Part shown: one piece after another, positions 91 through 6,620 of the stretch | Numbering within the stretch: position 1 is the first letter of the stretch | How the letters are laid out: every line of letters starts with the position of its first letter | NCBI GenBank assembly: GCA_903921965.1 | Contig: CAIXSE010000632.1 | Span: forward strand, 1 to 6,635 | Origin: an uncultured Thermoleophilia bacterium | Lineage (GTDB): Bacteria > Actinomycetota > Thermoleophilia > UBA2241 | Length of the DNA stretch: 6,635 bases | Reading direction: 5' to 3' | The notes under the pieces: generated by a model | What the model was told of the DNA's origin: nothing | Database searches by the model: none | What the model saw: only the letters and a program-made list of their open reading frames with translations | Made by a program: the position numbers and the translations under genes

Positions 91-395
91 GCATCTCCTC
101 CCTTCCCTCTCGGGCGCGCCCGTGCTCGGCGGACGCGACATGACGGCCTCCTGGAGACCGGGGCGGGGGGACGAGACGGCATCGTGCCTGCTGCCTCGGG
201 ACACCGGCTCCCCCCGGTGGTCTTCGAGCAACCATGGAGCTCATCTTATCACCGCCGTCCAAGGTTACGAACGTTTTCGTGTCAGACGACACACTCTACT
301 CGGGGCCCCTGTCGCGTCGGCCGCTCTGGCAACACTTGGCTGGGATATTCGTCTACGGAACCCTCATGTTTCCTCCGTCCCGGGCCGATACTCTT
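91..395. other. divergent intergenic region, no gene seen
   Basis: About 300 bases separate the leftward start at 90 from the riboswitch. Short reading frames exist here, but they lack ribosome binding sites and run into the riboswitch aptamer, so I do not call them genes. Two small inverted repeats are visible: CACCGG/CCGGTG (202-207 with 214-219) and GTGTC/GACAC (279-283 with 288-292). A weak -10-like GATACT at 387-392 would put a transcription start near 398-400, exactly at the 5' edge of the aptamer, but no convincing -35 goes with it. Nothing else is recognisable. Confidence 0.5.
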
Positions 396-480
396 CTTCG
401 ACAAAGGCAAACCTGTCGTGAGGCAGGGACGCAAAGCCAGAGGTCTTGAATGCTCAAGATAGCTCGGTTGCCGGTTTCGA
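396..480 (+). promoter_or_regulatory. GEMM-I (c-di-GMP-I class) riboswitch aptamer
   Basis: The two hallmark GEMM-I segments are present in order: AAAGGCAAACC (403-413) and GGGACGCAAAGCC (426-438). The fold can be drawn. GGC (406-408) pairs with GCC (436-438). CCTGTC (412-417) pairs with GGCAGG (422-427), closing a GTGA loop (418-421), the GNRA tetraloop this family uses for docking. The second arm is TCTTGA (444-449) with TCAAGA (454-459), on a base GAG (440-442) with CTC (463-465). The conserved GGTTGCCGG follows at 466-474, and TCGA (398-401) can close P1 with TCGA (477-480). The family senses cyclic di-GMP; a subclass senses cyclic AMP-GMP, and I cannot assign ligand choice by eye. It lies in the leader of the protease gene in the same orientation, so that gene is the obvious target. 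Confidence 0.93.
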
Positions 481-500
481 CTCGCACCGCACTCGCGGAA

Positions 501-596
501 GTCTCCGTCTGCCTTCAGCCTCTGGCCGCCGTCCCCGCCCCTCGTCTGAGCTGAGTCCAACGGGCGCCGCCGGAGGCGCCCCGGAGGCAGAGGGGG
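501..596 (+). promoter_or_regulatory. leader between riboswitch and protease: possible expression platform
   Basis: This leader holds a 7-bp hairpin, GGGCGCC (562-568) with GGCGCCC (575-581), followed by the purine-rich ribosome binding site AGAGGGGG (589-596). Two upstream pyrimidine stretches are complementary to that site: TCTGCCT (508-514) matches AGGCAGA (585-591), and CCTCTG (519-524) matches CAGAGG (588-593). No run of T follows the hairpin, so control of translation by hiding the ribosome binding site looks more likely than a classic intrinsic terminator. That is inference from complementarity only. Confidence 0.4.
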
Positions 597-603
597 TACC
601 GAA

Positions 604-2271
604 GTGAAGATGAGACGTTCGAGTGCCAGGTTCCTCATACTGGCCGCAACCCTGCTGGCGTTCCTGGTGGTGCCGGCTGTCGCGCTGGCGGAGGACGAGC
701 CGGCGGGCAAGATCGATCCCAGTGTGGAGACCATCCTCGAAGCGACCGGCGGGGCGGTGGCGGTCCCCGTCATGGTCCAGGCTCCCGGCGCCCTGGACCA
801 GGTCAAGGCGAAGATCCCGCTCGGCGTCGACATCACCGACGTCCCGATCGTCGACAGCGTCGCGGCCTACTTGACCCCCCAGGAGATCGCGGCACTGAGC
901 AGCGAGTCGTTCGTCTCGTACATCGTCGCCGACAACATGGTGCACGGCCTCAGCTATCAGAGCACCATGGACATCACGAACTTGAGCATCGGCCTGGGTG
1001 ACGTTCCCGCCCCGGCCGATGGCGGGCCTGACGGCGCCGGCGTCACCGTGGCGATCCTGGACACGGGCATCGCCACCAGCACCGACCTCGGCAGCAGCCG
1101 CATCGTCGGCTGGAAAGACCTTGTGAACAGCCAGCCGCTTCCTTACGACGACGCAGGCCACGGCACCTTCGTCGCCGGCGTCATCGCGGGCGACGGGACG
1201 GCCTCCCTCCCCATCGAGAACGGCGGCTTCGCGACCACCCAGTTCCGCGGGGTCGCGCCCGCGGCGAACGTGGTCGGGATCAAGGTACTCGACGAGGTCG
1301 GCCAGGGGCGCGCGTCAGCGCTCATCGCGGGCATCGCCTGGGCGGTCGCCCACAAGAACGAGTACGGCATCCAGGTCATGAACATCTCGATCGGCGGCAA
1401 CCCGGTCTCCTCCGTCTCGCGCGACCCTGTGGCGCAGGCCGTCGAGGCCGCGTGGCGCAGCGGGATCACCGTGGTGTGCGCCGCCGGCAACGAAGGCGAG
1501 TTCGGGCCCGGCAGCATCCTCTCCCCCGGCAACGACCCGTTCGTCATCACCGTCGGCGCCGACGACACGAAGCAGACGGCCGCGACCGCCGACGACAGCG
1601 TCGCCCCGTACAGCTCCGTCGGTCCGACGCTCTTCGACGAGATCATGAAGCCCGACGTGGTCGCCCCCGGTCAGCGTGTCGTCTCCTCCAGGGCGCTCGG
1701 CTCCTTCATCGACCTCAACTTCCCGCTCAACATCATCGCGCTCGAGGACTACACGCTGGCGCCGCCGCCCGGTACCGAGTCCGCGTATCTGATGCTCTCG
1801 GGCACCAGCGCCTCCGCTCCGGTCGTGGCGGGTGCCGCGGCCCTCATGCTGGGCGAGGACGCGAGCCTGACCCCTGACGACGTCAAGGTGCGGCTCACGG
1901 GGACGGCCGATCCGCTCGCCGGCACGGATGCGTACCATCAGGGCGCCGGCCTCATCGACGTCGACGAGGCGCTGGCCAGCACCGCGCACGCGACCGGCTG
2001 GGCACTCTCACCGGCCGACAGCGGTGCGAAGAAGAAGGTCTTCACCGAGGGTGACTACAACAAGTGGGAGAAGCGGTCCTGGGACAAGTGGGGATGGACC
2101 AAGTTCAAGTGGACCAAGTTCAAGTGGACCAAGTTCAAGTGGACCAAGTTCAAGTGGACGGACGTGGTCTGGACCAAGTTCAAGTGGACCGAGATCGACT
2201 GGACCAAGTTCAAGTGGACCGAATACGATTGGGCGAAGTTCAAGTGGACGACACTGCTCCAGGGAGAGTGA
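604..2271 (+). CDS. exported subtilisin-like (S8) serine protease with WTKFK-repeat tail
   Basis: This is a 555-residue secreted endopeptidase. Residues 1-29 are a signal peptide (KMRR, a hydrophobic core, then ALA cleavage at 27-29). Residues ~50-112 resemble the inhibitor/propeptide domain of subtilases. The catalytic domain (~140-460) shows the full triad: Asp153 in AILDTG, His186 in GHGT and Ser402 in GTSASAP, with oxyanion Asn296 in AAGNEG, so it should be active. From residue 488 to 548 a tryptophan recurs every five residues in a WTKFK-type tail. GTG at 604 is chosen as start because AGGGGG (591-596) sits 7 bases upstream; ATG at 610 is an alternative with poorer spacing. The gene lies behind the GEMM-I riboswitch and its TGA overlaps the start of the next gene. 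Substrate is unknown. The tail lacks an LPXTG motif or transmembrane helix, so any surface attachment would be non-covalent. Confidence 0.93.
   Translation: MKMRRSSARFLILAATLLAFLVVPAVALAEDEPAGKIDPSVETILEATGGAVAVPVMVQAPGALDQVKAKIPLGVDITDVPIVDSVAAYLTPQEIAALSSESFVSYIVADNMVHGLSYQSTMDITNLSIGLGDVPAPADGGPDGAGVTVAILDTGIATSTDLGSSRIVGWKDLVNSQPLPYDDAGHGTFVAGVIAGDGTASLPIENGGFATTQFRGVAPAANVVGIKVLDEVGQGRASALIAGIAWAVAHKNEYGIQVMNISIGGNPVSSVSRDPVAQAVEAAWRSGITVVCAAGNEGEFGPGSILSPGNDPFVITVGADDTKQTAATADDSVAPYSSVGPTLFDEIMKPDVVAPGQRVVSSRALGSFIDLNFPLNIIALEDYTLAPPPGTESAYLMLSGTSASAPVVAGAAALMLGEDASLTPDDVKVRLTGTADPLAGTDAYHQGAGLIDVDEALASTAHATGWALSPADSGAKKKVFTEGDYNKWEKRSWDKWGWTKFKWTKFKWTKFKWTKFKWTDVVWTKFKWTEIDWTKFKWTEYDWAKFKWTTLLQGE
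2065..2259 (+). repeat. 15-bp tandem repeat encoding W-x4 pentapeptides
   Basis: Tryptophan codons fall exactly every 15 bases from 2065 to 2247, giving 13 in register. The unit TGGACCAAGTTCAAG (WTKFK) occurs in four identical copies in a row at 2095-2154. After that, WTKFK-type units alternate with acidic or neutral ones: TDVV, then TKFK, TEID, TKFK, TEYD, AKFK. Identity at the DNA level suggests recent expansion by slippage or unequal crossover, while the alternating part shows older, diverged units. Because the unit is a multiple of three and has no stop in several frames, the repeat also makes spurious open frames on both strands. Confidence 0.95.
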
Positions 2272-3797
2272 CAGCGGCTGACACCCCTGAAGACCGCAAC
2301 GAGACGGCCGAGCGGCAACGCTCGGCCGTCTCGTTGTACGTGGCGGGGTTCGGACTGGCGGCGGCGGGAGCCTTCGCTTGGGTGACCACGTCCCAGCCCA
2401 CCCCCGTCACCTGGGCGCTTCTGGCCTTCGCCATCCTGGCCGCCGTGGCCGACATCAAGGAGGTCCGTCTCCCGGGCGTCGGCGTCGTCGGCATGTCCTT
2501 CGTGCCGGTGCTGGCAGCGCTGCTCGTCCTGGGCATCTGGCCCGCCATGATCGTCGCCATGGTCTCGGGAGCGACCTCGGCCGGGTTCACCCGAGACCCG
2601 CAGAAGATCGTCTTCAACGTGGCCAACTACGTCCTCTCCACGTTCGCGGCAGGCATGATCTACCTCGCGCTGGTACCGGGCGAAGCCTCGTTCGTCGACA
2701 AGATCGTGCCCGCGTTCCTGGCCACGGCGGTCGACTTCTTCGCGAACACGTTCGCGCTCGCCGGCGTGATCGCCCTCAGCACCGGCGGCGGACCGGTGAC
2801 CGTGTGGCGCCACAACTACCAGTGGGCGCTTCCCGGCTATCTGACGGGAGCCACCTTCGCCCTGCTCGCTGCCTACCTCTACGGCCTGCTGGGCATCGCC
2901 GGGCTCGTGCTCGCGATCCCGCCGATCGTCTTCATCTACTACTCGTACGAGATCTACGTGAGTCGTGCGCGCGACCGTCTCACATTCGACGCCGAACGCG
3001 ACTCGTTCCACGCCGAGCTGGCCAAGTCGGTGCAGCTGCACGACGAGCTGCGTTCGGCGCAGCTCAAGGTGGCGGCCGAGATCGAGCGCGCGAAGCGCAT
3101 CCAGACCGACCTGCTCCCCGCCAAGGTCCCGAGCGTGGAGCACCTCGACCTCACGCAGCGCATCGCGTTCCTCGGTGAGATGGGCGGCGACTACTACGAC
3201 TACATCCCGTTCGGCGACGGCCGCCTGGGCATCGTCTGCGGCGACGTGATGGGCAAGGGGCTGGCGGCGGCGCTCATCATGGCGATGGCGCGCTCGTTGC
3301 TGCACACGGCCATCGGTCCCGGCAAGTCGCCCGGAGACGTCCTCGCCGAGGTCAACGACGGACTCGCCCGCGACCTCGAGGGCCAGCGTCTGCCCTACTT
3401 CCTCACGCTCGTGCTCTGCGCCTACGACCCCGCGAAGGGGACGATGACCATCGCCGGCGGAGGGCACAACCCCGTGCTCATCACCACCGAGGACGGCCTC
3501 GTCGAGGTCCCGTCGCGCGGCGCCGCCCTGGGCGTGCGCACGGGCCTGCAGTTCCCCGAGGACGAAGTGTACCTGCGCGACGGCGCCACCGTGGCGCTCT
3601 ACACCGACGGCATCACCGAGGCACGCTCGCCCGACGGGGAGCTGTTCGGCATGGAGCGCCTGGAGACCGCGCTCGAGGCCGCGCGCCGGGAGGCGGTGCA
3701 GCAGACGCTCGACGCCGTGTGGAACGAGGTCGGCACGTTCCGGGCCACCGCCGATCCCAGCGACGACATCACGCTCCTGCTCGCGCGGTTCGCCTGA
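2268..3797 (+). CDS. membrane-anchored SpoIIE/RsbU-type PP2C phosphatase
   Basis: A 509-residue protein phosphatase that should dephosphorylate a serine on a STAS partner, probably the one encoded at 4647-4958. Residues ~21-228 form a membrane domain of about six hydrophobic segments, probably the sensory part. Residues ~230-285 are a charged, probably coiled-coil linker ending in IQTDLLP, the motif that commonly precedes this phosphatase domain. The C-terminal PP2C domain keeps its metal-binding acids: Asp308 in GGDYYD, Asp326 in GDVMGKG, Asp447 in YTDG and Asp499/500 in SDDITLL, plus GGHNP near 398-402. GTG at 2268 is chosen because it overlaps the protease stop (GTGA), with GGGAG just upstream, which suggests translational coupling. 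The spacing is tight; GTG at 2340 is another possible start. A large hairpin lies in codons ~10-23. Confidence 0.9.
   Translation: MTAADTPEDRNETAERQRSAVSLYVAGFGLAAAGAFAWVTTSQPTPVTWALLAFAILAAVADIKEVRLPGVGVVGMSFVPVLAALLVLGIWPAMIVAMVSGATSAGFTRDPQKIVFNVANYVLSTFAAGMIYLALVPGEASFVDKIVPAFLATAVDFFANTFALAGVIALSTGGGPVTVWRHNYQWALPGYLTGATFALLAAYLYGLLGIAGLVLAIPPIVFIYYSYEIYVSRARDRLTFDAERDSFHAELAKSVQLHDELRSAQLKVAAEIERAKRIQTDLLPAKVPSVEHLDLTQRIAFLGEMGGDYYDYIPFGDGRLGIVCGDVMGKGLAAALIMAMARSLLHTAIGPGKSPGDVLAEVNDGLARDLEGQRLPYFLTLVLCAYDPAKGTMTIAGGGHNPVLITTEDGLVEVPSRGAALGVRTGLQFPEDEVYLRDGATVALYTDGITEARSPDGELFGMERLETALEAARREAVQQTLDAVWNEVGTFRATADPSDDITLLLARFA
2296..2337 (+). terminator. 18-bp perfect hairpin at the protease/phosphatase junction
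   Basis: The bases at 2297-2314 are the exact reverse complement of 2319-2336, giving 18 uninterrupted pairs closed by a GCAA tetraloop (2315-2318), with one more G-U pair outside. It begins 25 bases after the protease stop, where an intrinsic terminator would be expected, but it also lies within the first codons of the phosphatase gene. No T-run follows (the next bases are TACGTGG), so termination, if any, would be partial or of the T-less type proposed for high-GC genomes. It may instead protect the upstream mRNA 3' end after processing. The structure is certain from sequence; its role is inferred. Confidence 0.6.
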
Positions 3798-3856: not shown

Positions 3857-4645
3857 ATGCCCGACAGGCGAGTCGACGCCCCAGCGAAGCTCCAGGTGTT
3901 CCGGTACCGGCCGTCGGACGGCCGCATCCACGCGGTCATCGGCGAACTGGACGAGGACCTGCGGCGCACCGACCTCGTCGCCTACGCGTCGGACGCGCTC
4001 GCCAGCGAGACGTTCGTGTGCCACGCCGTGGCCAACGACGACGAGTCGGTCGCCGACGAGCTGTGCTTCATCCCCCAGGGCGACCACTGCGAGATCCTCA
4101 GCATGCGCACCCGCGGCTGGAAGCGGCACCACGGCGACCACCGGCGCTCGCTGGTCGAGATCCTCAACACCATCGCCGCCGCCGTGGCCTGCGGCAAGCT
4201 CAGGATCCTCGACGACGACGAGACACGCACGGAGTCGGAGCTCGGCGACGTGCTCCAGGTGATCGAGATCGCCGGCAGCGGCACCCTGGGCAGCGCGCGC
4301 GACGCGGTCCAGCATGCTCTCGAGCTCTCCGGCCTCGACGAGGCGACGTGCCAGCGCACCACGCTGTGCGTTTCGGAGGCGCTCACGAACATCCTGCTGC
4401 ACGGCGGCGGACGCGGGGCCATGACCGTCCGCCGCCTGCCGGGCCGGCTGCGCATCGTCGTCGCCGACGAAGGACCCGGCCTCAACTTCCTGAACTGGAT
4501 AGAGCCGCCGGCCGTCGGAGGCCAGGCCTCCATGGGCTACGGCTTCAAGATCATCCTGGACAACCTCGACGCGGTGGCGCTGCACACAGGGCCCGAGGGC
4601 ACCACGCTGGTGCTGGACCGCGTCGTCGACCGAGGCAGGGACTAG
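3857..4645 (+). CDS. RsbW/RsbT-like GHKL ATPase (anti-sigma factor/serine kinase family) with extra N-terminal domain
   Basis: A 262-residue cytosolic protein. The C-terminal ~120 residues (about 140-256) are a GHKL-type ATPase of the anti-sigma kinase kind: the N box has Glu174 and Asn178 in VSEALTN, the G1 box is DEGPG (204-208), and a later glycine motif is MGYGF (226-230). In this family such proteins phosphorylate a STAS antagonist and bind a sigma factor or other target. Residues 1-~130 form a domain I do not recognise; typical RsbW proteins are only ~140-160 residues in total, so this one is clearly extended. The ATG at 3857 has GAAAGG 5 bases upstream. It lies 59 bases after the phosphatase and one base before the STAS gene, which fits a partner-switch operon. 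Whether it holds a sigma factor or acts as an RsbT-like activator cannot be told from the sequence. Confidence 0.87.
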   Translation: MPDRRVDAPAKLQVFRYRPSDGRIHAVIGELDEDLRRTDLVAYASDALASETFVCHAVANDDESVADELCFIPQGDHCEILSMRTRGWKRHHGDHRRSLVEILNTIAAAVACGKLRILDDDETRTESELGDVLQVIEIAGSGTLGSARDAVQHALELSGLDEATCQRTTLCVSEALTNILLHGGGRGAMTVRRLPGRLRIVVADEGPGLNFLNWIEPPAVGGQASMGYGFKIILDNLDAVALHTGPEGTTLVLDRVVDRGRD

Positions 4646-4646
4646 C

Positions 4647-4958
4647 ATGCTGAGCACATCCGTCGCCCAAGGCCCCGCGCCCACCGTCTTCCTCTCCGGA
4701 GAGATGGACCTGGACTGCGCCGACACGCTCCGCGAAGCCGTCGGAGAGGCGGCCCGCGGAGCCGAAGCGGTCGTGCTGGACTTCTCGGGCGTGTCGTTCA
4801 TCGACTCGTCCGGGACGGGGATCTTCGTCCGCCTCTGCCTCGACCTCAGGAGCCAGGGCGTCCCGCTCGTGGCACGCAACCTCACGCCGACGGTACGCGG
4901 CGTGTTCGACATGCTGCGCGTGCGCGACCTCGTGGGCGACGACGTCTTCTCCGACTGA
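4647..4958 (+). CDS. STAS-domain anti-sigma factor antagonist
   Basis: A 103-residue single-domain STAS protein, a usual length for SpoIIAA/RsbV-type antagonists. The phosphorylation loop is intact: FIDSSGTG at 51-58, where Ser55 corresponds by position to the phosphorylated second serine of the DSSG motif in SpoIIAA. The N-terminal strand and turn FLSGEMDLDCA (15-25) are also typical. In the family model the ATPase phosphorylates this serine and a SpoIIE-type phosphatase removes the phosphate; the bare form then captures the ATPase. Both partners are encoded directly upstream. The start is ATG at 4647, one base after the ATPase stop, with AGGG at 4637-4640, so the two genes are almost certainly co-translated. 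Confidence 0.92.
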   Translation: MLSTSVAQGPAPTVFLSGEMDLDCADTLREAVGEAARGAEAVVLDFSGVSFIDSSGTGIFVRLCLDLRSQGVPLVARNLTPTVRGVFDMLRVRDLVGDDVFSD

Positions 4959-5388: not shown

Positions 5389-5715
5389 TTGGCACACGAC
5401 GACATCCCGGCGGACGGAGAGGCCGGCGCTCACGCCCCGCGCGGGTCTCTCGACCCGTCGGGGATCGCCGATCACGCGGCCCGGCAGCACGGGCTGAAGG
5501 TGAGCCCGGGCACCGTGCGCCTCTGGGTGGAGGCCGGGCGCGTCCCTGCCGTGGTGGACGAGCGCGGCGAGCTGCTCATCGACCCGGACGACGTCGACAG
5601 GTTCTTCGAGCGCGGAGGGACCCTGGGAGCGCACGACGCACAGGGTCCGCCGCACGGCATCACGACGCCAGGCCGGTCAGCGGGAGAAGAGAGTGGTGGC
5701 GAGGGTCAGAATTGA
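5389..5715 (+). CDS. small helix-turn-helix (MerR/excisionase-like) protein
   Basis: A probable DNA-binding protein of 108 residues. Residues ~21-76 look like the helix-turn-helix fold of the excisionase/MerR type: LDPSGIADHAARQHGLKVSP, then GTVRLWVEAGRVPAV, a short hairpin (DERGELLI) and DPDDVDRFFERGG. The flanking N- and C-terminal regions are low-complexity and probably disordered. The TTG at 5389 is preferred because AGGAG (5378-5382) lies 6 bases upstream. A GTG at 5371 would give 114 residues but abuts the palindrome and has no ribosome binding site, unless it is read leaderless. The last ~22 bases overlap the opposing tRNA-Phe gene, and the stop falls inside it. No integrase or phage gene is nearby, so a role in excision is unlikely; local regulation is more plausible. 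Confidence 0.68.
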   Translation: MAHDDIPADGEAGAHAPRGSLDPSGIADHAARQHGLKVSPGTVRLWVEAGRVPAVVDERGELLIDPDDVDRFFERGGTLGAHDAQGPPHGITTPGRSAGEESGGEGQN

Positions 5716-5769
5716 ACTGACGACACCGCGATTTTCAGTCGCGTGCTCTACCAACTGAGCTACCTCGCC
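5694..5769 (-). tRNA. tRNA-Phe (GAA), CCA encoded
   Basis: On the minus strand a full cloverleaf reads from 5769 to 5694. The acceptor stem is GGCGAGG with CCTCGCC, the D arm GCTC/GAGC with loop AGTTGGTA, the anticodon stem CGCGA/TCGCG with loop CTGAAAA (anticodon GAA), and the T arm GTCAG/CTGAC with loop TTCAATT. Discriminator A is followed by an encoded CCA. All stems pair fully. Confidence 0.98.
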
Positions 5770-5906: not shown

Positions 5907-6620
5907 TCACCAGCCGGTCGTGTCCAGCTCGGACTGCTTCTCGACCCGCTCGGGCTCCTCTTCGGGGAGGAAGACCTTGATGAGGTCCTTCTCCTTGCCG
6001 CGCGGCACCAGGCACAGCACGTAGTCGCCGGCGAGGATCATGGTGGAGCCGCGCGCAACCAGGGCCTGCCCGGCGCGCACGATGGCCGCCAGCAGCACGC
6101 CGGAAGGCAGGTCGATGTCTTGCACGTAGGTGTCGGAGAACGGGGAGTTCTCGCTCACCTCGAGCTCGACCAGCTCCAGGCCCTCACCGCGCAGCGAGAG
6201 CAGGTGCACGAACTTGTGCACCGGCAGCTCGTGCATGATGAGCCGCAGCATCGCCGTCGTGGCGCAGACGGTGTTGTCGATGCCGAGGAGGTCGAACGTG
6301 GCCTGGTTGAACGGGTTGTTGACGCGCGCCACGATCTTGGGCACGCCGAACTTGAGCCTGGCGATCTGCGAGATGACGATGTTGTCCTCGTCGTCGCCGG
6401 TGACCGCCACGATCATGTCGGCGCGGCCGATACCGGCCTTCTCCAGCACCCAGACCTCGGTGCCGTCGCCGAACACCAGAGACTCCTCGCCCAGCTCTTC
6501 GGCGACGATGTCGTACCGCGACCTGCGCTGTTCGACGAGCACGATCTCGTGCCCGAGCTGCGTGAGCTGTCGCGCCGTGTTGAGGCCGACCTTGCCGGCG
6601 CCCACGATGAGTACGAACAC
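5907..6620 (-). CDS. trkA: TrkA-family potassium uptake regulatory protein (RCK domains)
   Basis: A 237-residue cytosolic subunit that gates a Trk/Ktr-type potassium transporter in response to nucleotide binding. Residues 1-~118 form the RCK_N Rossmann domain, with GAGKVG (7-12), an acidic residue at the end of the second strand (Glu30) and GDGT (51-54). Residues ~137-218 form the RCK_C domain (LELVELEVSENSPFSDTYVQ onward), and an acidic tail follows. The length matches single-repeat TrkA proteins (~220 residues) rather than the double-length E. coli form. The GTG at 6620-6618 is supported by GGAGGG 7 bases upstream on the minus strand. A TGA three bases before the start suggests a tightly packed upstream partner, commonly another trkA copy or the transporter, beyond the window edge. 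Confidence 0.92.
   Translation of the reverse strand: MFVLIVGAGKVGLNTARQLTQLGHEIVLVEQRRSRYDIVAEELGEESLVFGDGTEVWVLEKAGIGRADMIVAVTGDDEDNIVISQIARLKFGVPKIVARVNNPFNQATFDLLGIDNTVCATTAMLRLIMHELPVHKFVHLLSLRGEGLELVELEVSENSPFSDTYVQDIDLPSGVLLAAIVRAGQALVARGSTMILAGDYVLCLVPRGKEKDLIKVFLPEEEPERVEKQSELDTTGW

Follow-up and report, generated by a model that had tools for sequence, protein, structure and literature searches.

The closest described protein system is the RsiG-(c-di-GMP)-WhiG switch of Streptomyces and Rubrobacter, in which RsiG bound to c-di-GMP sequesters the sigma factor WhiG (PMC8325347). According to the same report, Thermoleophilia and Rubrobacter have single-motif RsiG, and WhiG promoters with the consensus applied below, start-site-mapped in Rubrobacter, serve type IV pilus and DGC/PDE genes (PMC8325347). 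At the RNA level, the gene zmpI of Clostridioides difficile lies behind the class I riboswitch Cdi-1-12 and was 62.6-fold lower at high c-di-GMP (PMC6200980). The original prediction for the DNA analysed here had cited a c-di-GMP-controlled exported protease of this species as a precedent, and that citation is correct. The abstract of the C. difficile report describes the class I switches as uniformly OFF, although one class I gene in the report rose with c-di-GMP (PMC6200980).

The DNA analysed in the current study (the window, 6,635 nt) carries a c-di-GMP-I aptamer ahead of a gene for a secreted subtilisin. In the reading favoured here, c-di-GMP probably controls this protease gene at two successive steps, and it is moderately likely that region 364-603 is a two-step control region, made up of a WhiG promoter and the leader of an OFF riboswitch. 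The aptamer by itself is a new member of a known riboswitch class. The interesting part is its combination with a WhiG-type promoter, which recurs across the bacterial class; no report of such a combination, and no paper on Thermoleophilia riboswitches, was found in searches of open-licence literature.

The aptamer was located at 397-476 on the plus strand, where cmscan at Rfam gathering thresholds returned RF03167 (c-di-GMP-I-GGC, clan CL00126) with 69.2 bits (E 2.9e-15; E 1.7e-16 for the same aptamer on a 401-nt stretch alone). A covariance-model search for GEMM-I had been suggested in the original prediction, and the match is over the gathering score of 59. Lower-scoring matches of CL00126 at 397-476 were left out by cmscan, and the scores for RF01051 refer to relatives only: on the protease aptamers of ten relatives this model reached 68.1-76.6 bits (cut-off 35). 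The hallmark segments, GNRA loop and helices that had been described in the window all hold. P2 pairs 412-417 with 422-427 and is capped by a GUGA loop of the GNRA type at 418-421, and P3 is formed by about 434-447/455-469. That the c-di-GMP-I aptamer is real is practically beyond doubt. It starts 207 nt upstream of the GTG start codon of the protease gene (604). The feature had been drawn as 396-603; the aptamer within it stands, at 397-476, but the remaining 477-603 is leader.

Helix P1 (397-400/473-476) has only 2-3 bp, and the putative -10 element described below ends 5 nt upstream, so the transcription start site may fall inside P1. By eye, J1/2 seemed to be one base shorter in the aptamers of loci L005, L008 and L009, with the top P1 pair moved. 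Phage records gave no match to positions 340-700.

Among the matches listed (at least 80 loci), the closest relatives of the protease, L001-L010, showed 53-73% identity and came from metagenome-assembled genomes; an aptamer was found upstream of the protease gene in all ten. The RNA-family scan covered L001-L013 of the best 80 loci, and detected no aptamer at L011-L013 (38-42% identity). The order to which L001 belongs was represented by 15 genomes, every one of which contained at least one c-di-GMP-I aptamer, and in all 12 genomes of the order having the orthologous protease an aptamer precedes it. Several of these 12 are cut by contig ends, and the protease match in genome G011 contains one in-frame TAA. 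In a 13th genome, G012 (L098), the aptamer lies close to where the contig ends and is followed by the beginning of a similar reading frame. Genomes G013 and G014 had pilin-type aptamers only, and neither such a protease nor a protease-type aptamer. The aptamer stems were almost invariant among 14 protease leaders (the window and 13 relatives).

The gene behind the aptamer (604-2271, plus strand) encodes an S8 subtilisin (Pfam Peptidase_S8, 8.1e-44), whose start codon (GTG, 604) and Sec-type signal peptide were read from the sequence. The placement of the riboswitch ahead of a secreted subtilisin, as originally proposed, is thus borne out and is kept in relatives. Three genes follow on the same strand, coding for a MASE9-SpoIIE protein phosphatase (2268-3797; Pfam SpoIIE over cut-off), an HATPase_c_2 protein of anti-sigma-kinase type (3857-4645; Pfam over cut-off, RsbA-family match below cut-off) and a STAS protein of anti-anti-sigma type (4647-4958; Pfam over cut-off). 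The NCBIfam matches of the partner-switch proteins were all below cut-off; by Pfam, an RsbU/RsbW/RsbV-type set of phosphatase, kinase and STAS protein is encoded together here and kept in relatives. The coupling of a partner-switch phosphatase to the protease had also been predicted, and SpoIIE was found behind the protease in the window and in nine relatives (L001, L002, L004, L005, L007, L008, L009, L133 and L134). Seven of these nine also have the HATPase gene and six the STAS gene, the contig or locus ending in the other cases. The start codon of the SpoIIE gene overlaps the stop codon of the protease gene (GTGA), which suggests that the two are translationally coupled. The protease and partner-switch genes would be transcribed together, and from this arrangement the riboswitch probably governs the partner-switching module besides the protease.

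At its C-terminus (2090-2260) the protease has a run of WTKFKW-type repeats. The tails of the relatives contain WTKFKW, WTKYKW, WTKFAW or WTKYAW units in variable number, and a W-x-K-aromatic tail of at least one unit was present in the 10 of 12 orthologous proteases whose tails were viewed (all but those of G008 and G010). An AlphaFold model of the protease had a mean pLDDT of 57.4, with the C-terminal repeats below 50. On the minus strand, a tRNA gene (5697-5769, 73.4 bits) and nearby a TrkA-like gene (5907-6620) were observed; L004, L005 and L008 have tRNAs resembling this one downstream of the operon.

The best Rfam model for the window is RF03167, whose name GGC hints at a variant, and this would fit a ligand other than c-di-GMP, such as cGAMP or another dinucleotide. 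Three window residues bear on this question, G406, A433 and C471, which we take to be positions 20, 47 and 92 of Vc2. The first two were assigned by script and the third by eye, in the window only. The G of the RF03167 consensus at the A47 position presumably has a meaning for ligand choice. This G, which defines the variant, is missing from the window, which has GCAAAG where the RF03167 consensus has GCGAAG, and from the 13 relatives; on that ground, a variant ligand suggested by the GGC label was rejected. In 14 of 14 protease leaders G and A occupy positions 20 and 47, and the A that cGAMP-type (GEMM-Ib) aptamers have at the G20 position was missing from all of them. Residues A14, A41 and C75 of the cGAMP riboswitch were placed by us at what we take to be Vc2 positions 20, 47 and 92. 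In that riboswitch, which has A14, A41 is stacked between the ligand bases and C75 is bonded to the ligand (PMC6274999). Among 79 other aptamers of the bacterial class, 61 had G/A at positions 20 and 47, four had A/A, and the pattern left 14 incompletely resolved. The fit of RF01051 to the relatives also speaks against cGAMP or another dinucleotide, which we consider very improbable. The aptamer is judged to be a canonical one, and c-di-GMP is predicted as its ligand with high confidence, given that Vc2 position 20 is occupied by G and not by the cGAMP-type A. A search for GGDEF proteins had been part of the original prediction as well, and these domains proved abundant in the relatives, with 8-44 matches in each of the order's 15 genomes.

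Just ahead of the aptamer, an alignment of 11 leaders revealed a CCGATA island in otherwise little-conserved DNA. The 70 nt upstream of the aptamer were scored against the flagellar/WhiG consensus TAAA-N14-17-GCCGATAA. In the window the best match was TCAT-N16-GCCGATAC (9/12, shuffle p 0.011), consisting of a putative -35 element TCAT (364-367; consensus TAAA) and, after a spacer of 16, a putative WhiG/FliA-type -10 element GCCGATAC (384-391; 7/8), both on the plus strand, the latter ending 5 nt before the aptamer. The best -10 element ended 3-8 nt ahead of the aptamer in 14 of 14 leaders and matched at 6-8 of 8 letters. Two-box scores were 8-11 of 12, with a shuffle p <0.05 in ten of the leaders, which are orthologues and not independent samples; L006, L010, L098 and L099 were weak singly (8/12, p >0.1). 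A WhiG-type promoter ahead of the aptamer is considered highly likely and is presumed to be in use. This putative promoter is new here and was absent from the original prediction.

A further element, GTCTA (351-355, plus strand, within ATTCGTCTA), was shared by 10 of 14 leaders at a distance of 22-33 nt from the -10 element, on its upstream side. It may bind a common activator or serve as a -35 element. GTCTA(GGAA) was common to these ten protease leaders and, by eye, to several pilin riboswitch promoters of the order (L104, L094 and L096).

For a class-wide test, RF01051 was searched with stricter filters in 299 genomes of the class, 117 of which had a match. The test set comprised 79 aptamers from beyond the order, 19 of them obtained directly as loci and 60 taken roughly from the best E-value downwards, so that it represents the stronger matches, and the consensus was TAAA-N14-16-GCCGATAA. 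A score of at least 10/12 within 70 nt was reached by 21 of the 79, compared with 0.42% of 5464 control windows from the same loci, and at least 9/12 by 36 of 79, compared with 2.9% of control windows. When the search was extended to 130 nt (n=78), 33 aptamers reached at least 10/12 where 0.68 were expected; 15 reached 11 (0.03 expected) and two were perfect. Three further aptamers scored 11, 10 and 7 of 12 within 130 nt, i.e. at least 10 in two of three (one of three within 70 nt). After grouping by downstream protein and upstream DNA, 7 of 29 groups held a member with at least 10/12 within 70 nt. None of 30 cobalamin riboswitches of the class reached 9/12 within 70 or 120 nt, their upstream DNA being less AT-rich (0.36 vs 0.47). 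When both boxes were permuted, in six versions, 0-9 matches reached at least 10, the permutation with nine sharing 6/8 of the -10 letters, and eight permutations of the -10 box with TAAA kept gave 0-8 in the 130-nt test. This enrichment does not extend to the remaining aptamers of the window's own order: among 11 (10 of them before pilins), one scored 10/12 and one more 9 within 70 nt.

A WhiG/FliA sigma factor (TIGR02479, over cut-off) was detected in 14 of the 15 genomes of the order, and RsiG (PF22802) likewise in 14 of 15, compared with 0 of 14 control genomes. In the RsiG motif E-x3-S-x2-R-x3-Q-x3-D, the E, S, R and D were kept in all 14 homologues; Q was kept in five, which have the full motif, and replaced by H in nine. 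No ORF with the strict motif was found beside whiG in 14 WhiG loci, with a pattern that demanded Q and was blind to the H form. Across the class, RsiG was present in 112 of the 117 genomes in which a c-di-GMP-I aptamer was detected and in 123 of the 182 others, counts uncorrected for kinship and genome completeness. From these relatives, WhiG and RsiG are expected in the window's organism too.

The same data bear on the possibility that the locus is a plain c-di-GMP-I riboswitch, with the GCCGATA boxes serving another sigma factor or regulator and RsiG uninvolved. The window match of only 9/12, the GTCTA element kept in 10 of 14 leaders, and the existence of other group 3 sigma genes, one of them adjoining pilin riboswitches, would agree with such an arrangement. 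It is at odds with a box position that is constant throughout the 14 leaders, with the class-wide enrichment of both boxes at the correct spacing, and with the occurrence of WhiG and RsiG in 14 of 15 genomes each, and is regarded as rather improbable.

In the favoured reading of two-step control, WhiG would read the boxes at 364-367 and 384-391, and at high c-di-GMP it would be sequestered by RsiG carrying the ligand. The transcript would start at or next to the aptamer, which would then bind c-di-GMP itself, and the liganded aptamer would lower expression through the leader, with either Rho-dependent termination or occlusion of the Shine-Dalgarno sequence as the means. At low c-di-GMP, WhiG would be free, the operon transcribed and the unliganded leader permissive. 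At high c-di-GMP, RsiG would hold WhiG, and any transcripts still started would be caught by the aptamer. With both steps closed at high c-di-GMP, the output of the operon (the secreted subtilisin with the partner-switching module of SpoIIE phosphatase, HATPase and STAS protein) would be steep and confined to low c-di-GMP. The locus may act as a comparable lifestyle switch, as had been suggested originally.

The leader between aptamer and start codon is 127 nt long (477-603). It begins with a C-rich, G-poor stretch of rut-like composition (477-554; C 0.45, G 0.24), followed by a GC-rich inverted repeat, GGGCGCC/GGCGCCC (562-581), and a Shine-Dalgarno-like AGGGGG (591-596) located 7 nt before the GTG, all on the plus strand and the latter two identified by eye. 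The repeat lies upstream of the Shine-Dalgarno sequence and has no U-run after it, and no U-tailed terminator was seen by eye in the window's leader. An excess of C over G is typical of Rho loading sites, and in 12 of 14 leaders this excess was greater than in 95% of 15,596 control windows. No conserved alternative pairing of the aptamer with the leader or with the Shine-Dalgarno sequence was found in the 14 leaders. In best-complement tests (shuffle p <0.05), the 3' strand of P2 was positive in 4 of 14 leaders and the 5' strand of P3 in one, the window (p 0.01), whereas the 3' strand of P3 and the Shine-Dalgarno stretch gave none in 14. The 9-bp anti-P3 segment of the window (518-526) is not conserved. 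In two-state folding the effect was weak: fixing the aptamer cut the exposure of the Shine-Dalgarno sequence by >0.1 in 4 of 14 leaders; the window showed no change, with CGGAGG, 16 nt before the start, being scored instead of AGGGGG. Rho-dependent termination and translational control were ranked about equal as the expression platform.

Four of ten pilin leaders of the order (L091, L102, L103 and L104) contain a CCUGUGGU segment that can form either of two pairings, one with P3 of the aptamer, the other within a terminator-like hairpin that has U's behind it. Pairing of CCUGUGGU with P3 was better than in shuffled sequences in three of them (p 0.02-0.03), while L102 was no better (p 0.26). 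An OFF direction for the protease riboswitch appears fairly probable, judging from the class I precedents (PMC6200980) and these pilin riboswitches of the same order. With an ON riboswitch in the same architecture, RsiG would close the promoter while the leader opens, and the operon would respond with a band-pass or pulse at middling c-di-GMP. Neither a conserved terminator nor a sequestering helix fixes the direction, and the C. difficile class I gene that rose with c-di-GMP (PMC6200980) would be a parallel. The uniformly OFF class I switches of the C. difficile abstract (PMC6200980), and the four of ten pilin riboswitches that look OFF, point the other way, so that an ON switch seems possible but unlikely.

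Beyond the protease, the first genes behind other aptamers of the class, as chosen by a script and viewed by eye, encode type IV pilins and signal-peptide proteins resembling glycosidases. At L228, in another genome of the class, a second, different subtilisin-like protein was seen by eye behind a c-di-GMP-I aptamer. A gene order of PilC-like protein, sigma factor of about 250 aa, c-di-GMP-I riboswitch and type IV pilin was observed by eye at L091, L094, L101, L103 and L104. The L094 sigma factor had its best NCBIfam match to SigB/SigF/SigG (176.7 bits, below cut-off), and, as a guess, the partner-switching proteins encoded in the protease operon may act on such a pilin-adjacent SigB/F-like sigma factor. 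Across the class, many c-di-GMP-I riboswitches may stand behind WhiG promoters and be doubly gated. The partner switch would add a third layer that may govern the pilin-side SigB/F-like sigma factor, so that proteolysis and type IV pili would be linked in a single c-di-GMP network; we give this wider scheme an even chance.

The anti-sigma factor RsiG and the GEMM-I riboswitch, both known c-di-GMP receptors, seem to meet at shared transcription units. If true, nature would here offer a clean example of a single signal that acts twice in succession, first on initiation and then at a later stage; the consequences for steepness, leak and thresholds, or a band-pass response if the riboswitch were ON, could be tested. 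It also gives candidate WhiG targets in a class known here largely from metagenomes, and suggests a regulon of secreted proteases, glycosidase-like proteins and pilins.

Compared with C. difficile Cdi-1-12/zmpI, the window likewise has a class I riboswitch before a protease gene, but zmpI encodes a zinc metalloprotease and not a subtilisin, belongs to another phylum, and is described without mention of partner-switch genes in the account consulted (PMC6200980). RF03167 is the top-ranked model, but its consensus has G where the window and 13 relatives have A. With the c-di-GMP-I (GEMM-I) switches of RF01051 the locus has in common the aptamer fold, the GNRA loop, the canonical ligand residues and a downstream gene for an exported protein. 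The protease leaders differ from those switches in the almost invariant stems (14 leaders), the very short P1 and the WhiG-type box directly upstream, and the window's leader in having no visible U-tailed terminator. The RsiG-WhiG report names type IV pili and DGC/PDE genes as targets, and the word "riboswitch" is absent from its main text (PMC8325347). The system described there and the present locus would share the promoter consensus, the single-motif RsiG of Thermoleophilia and the c-di-GMP signal (PMC8325347).
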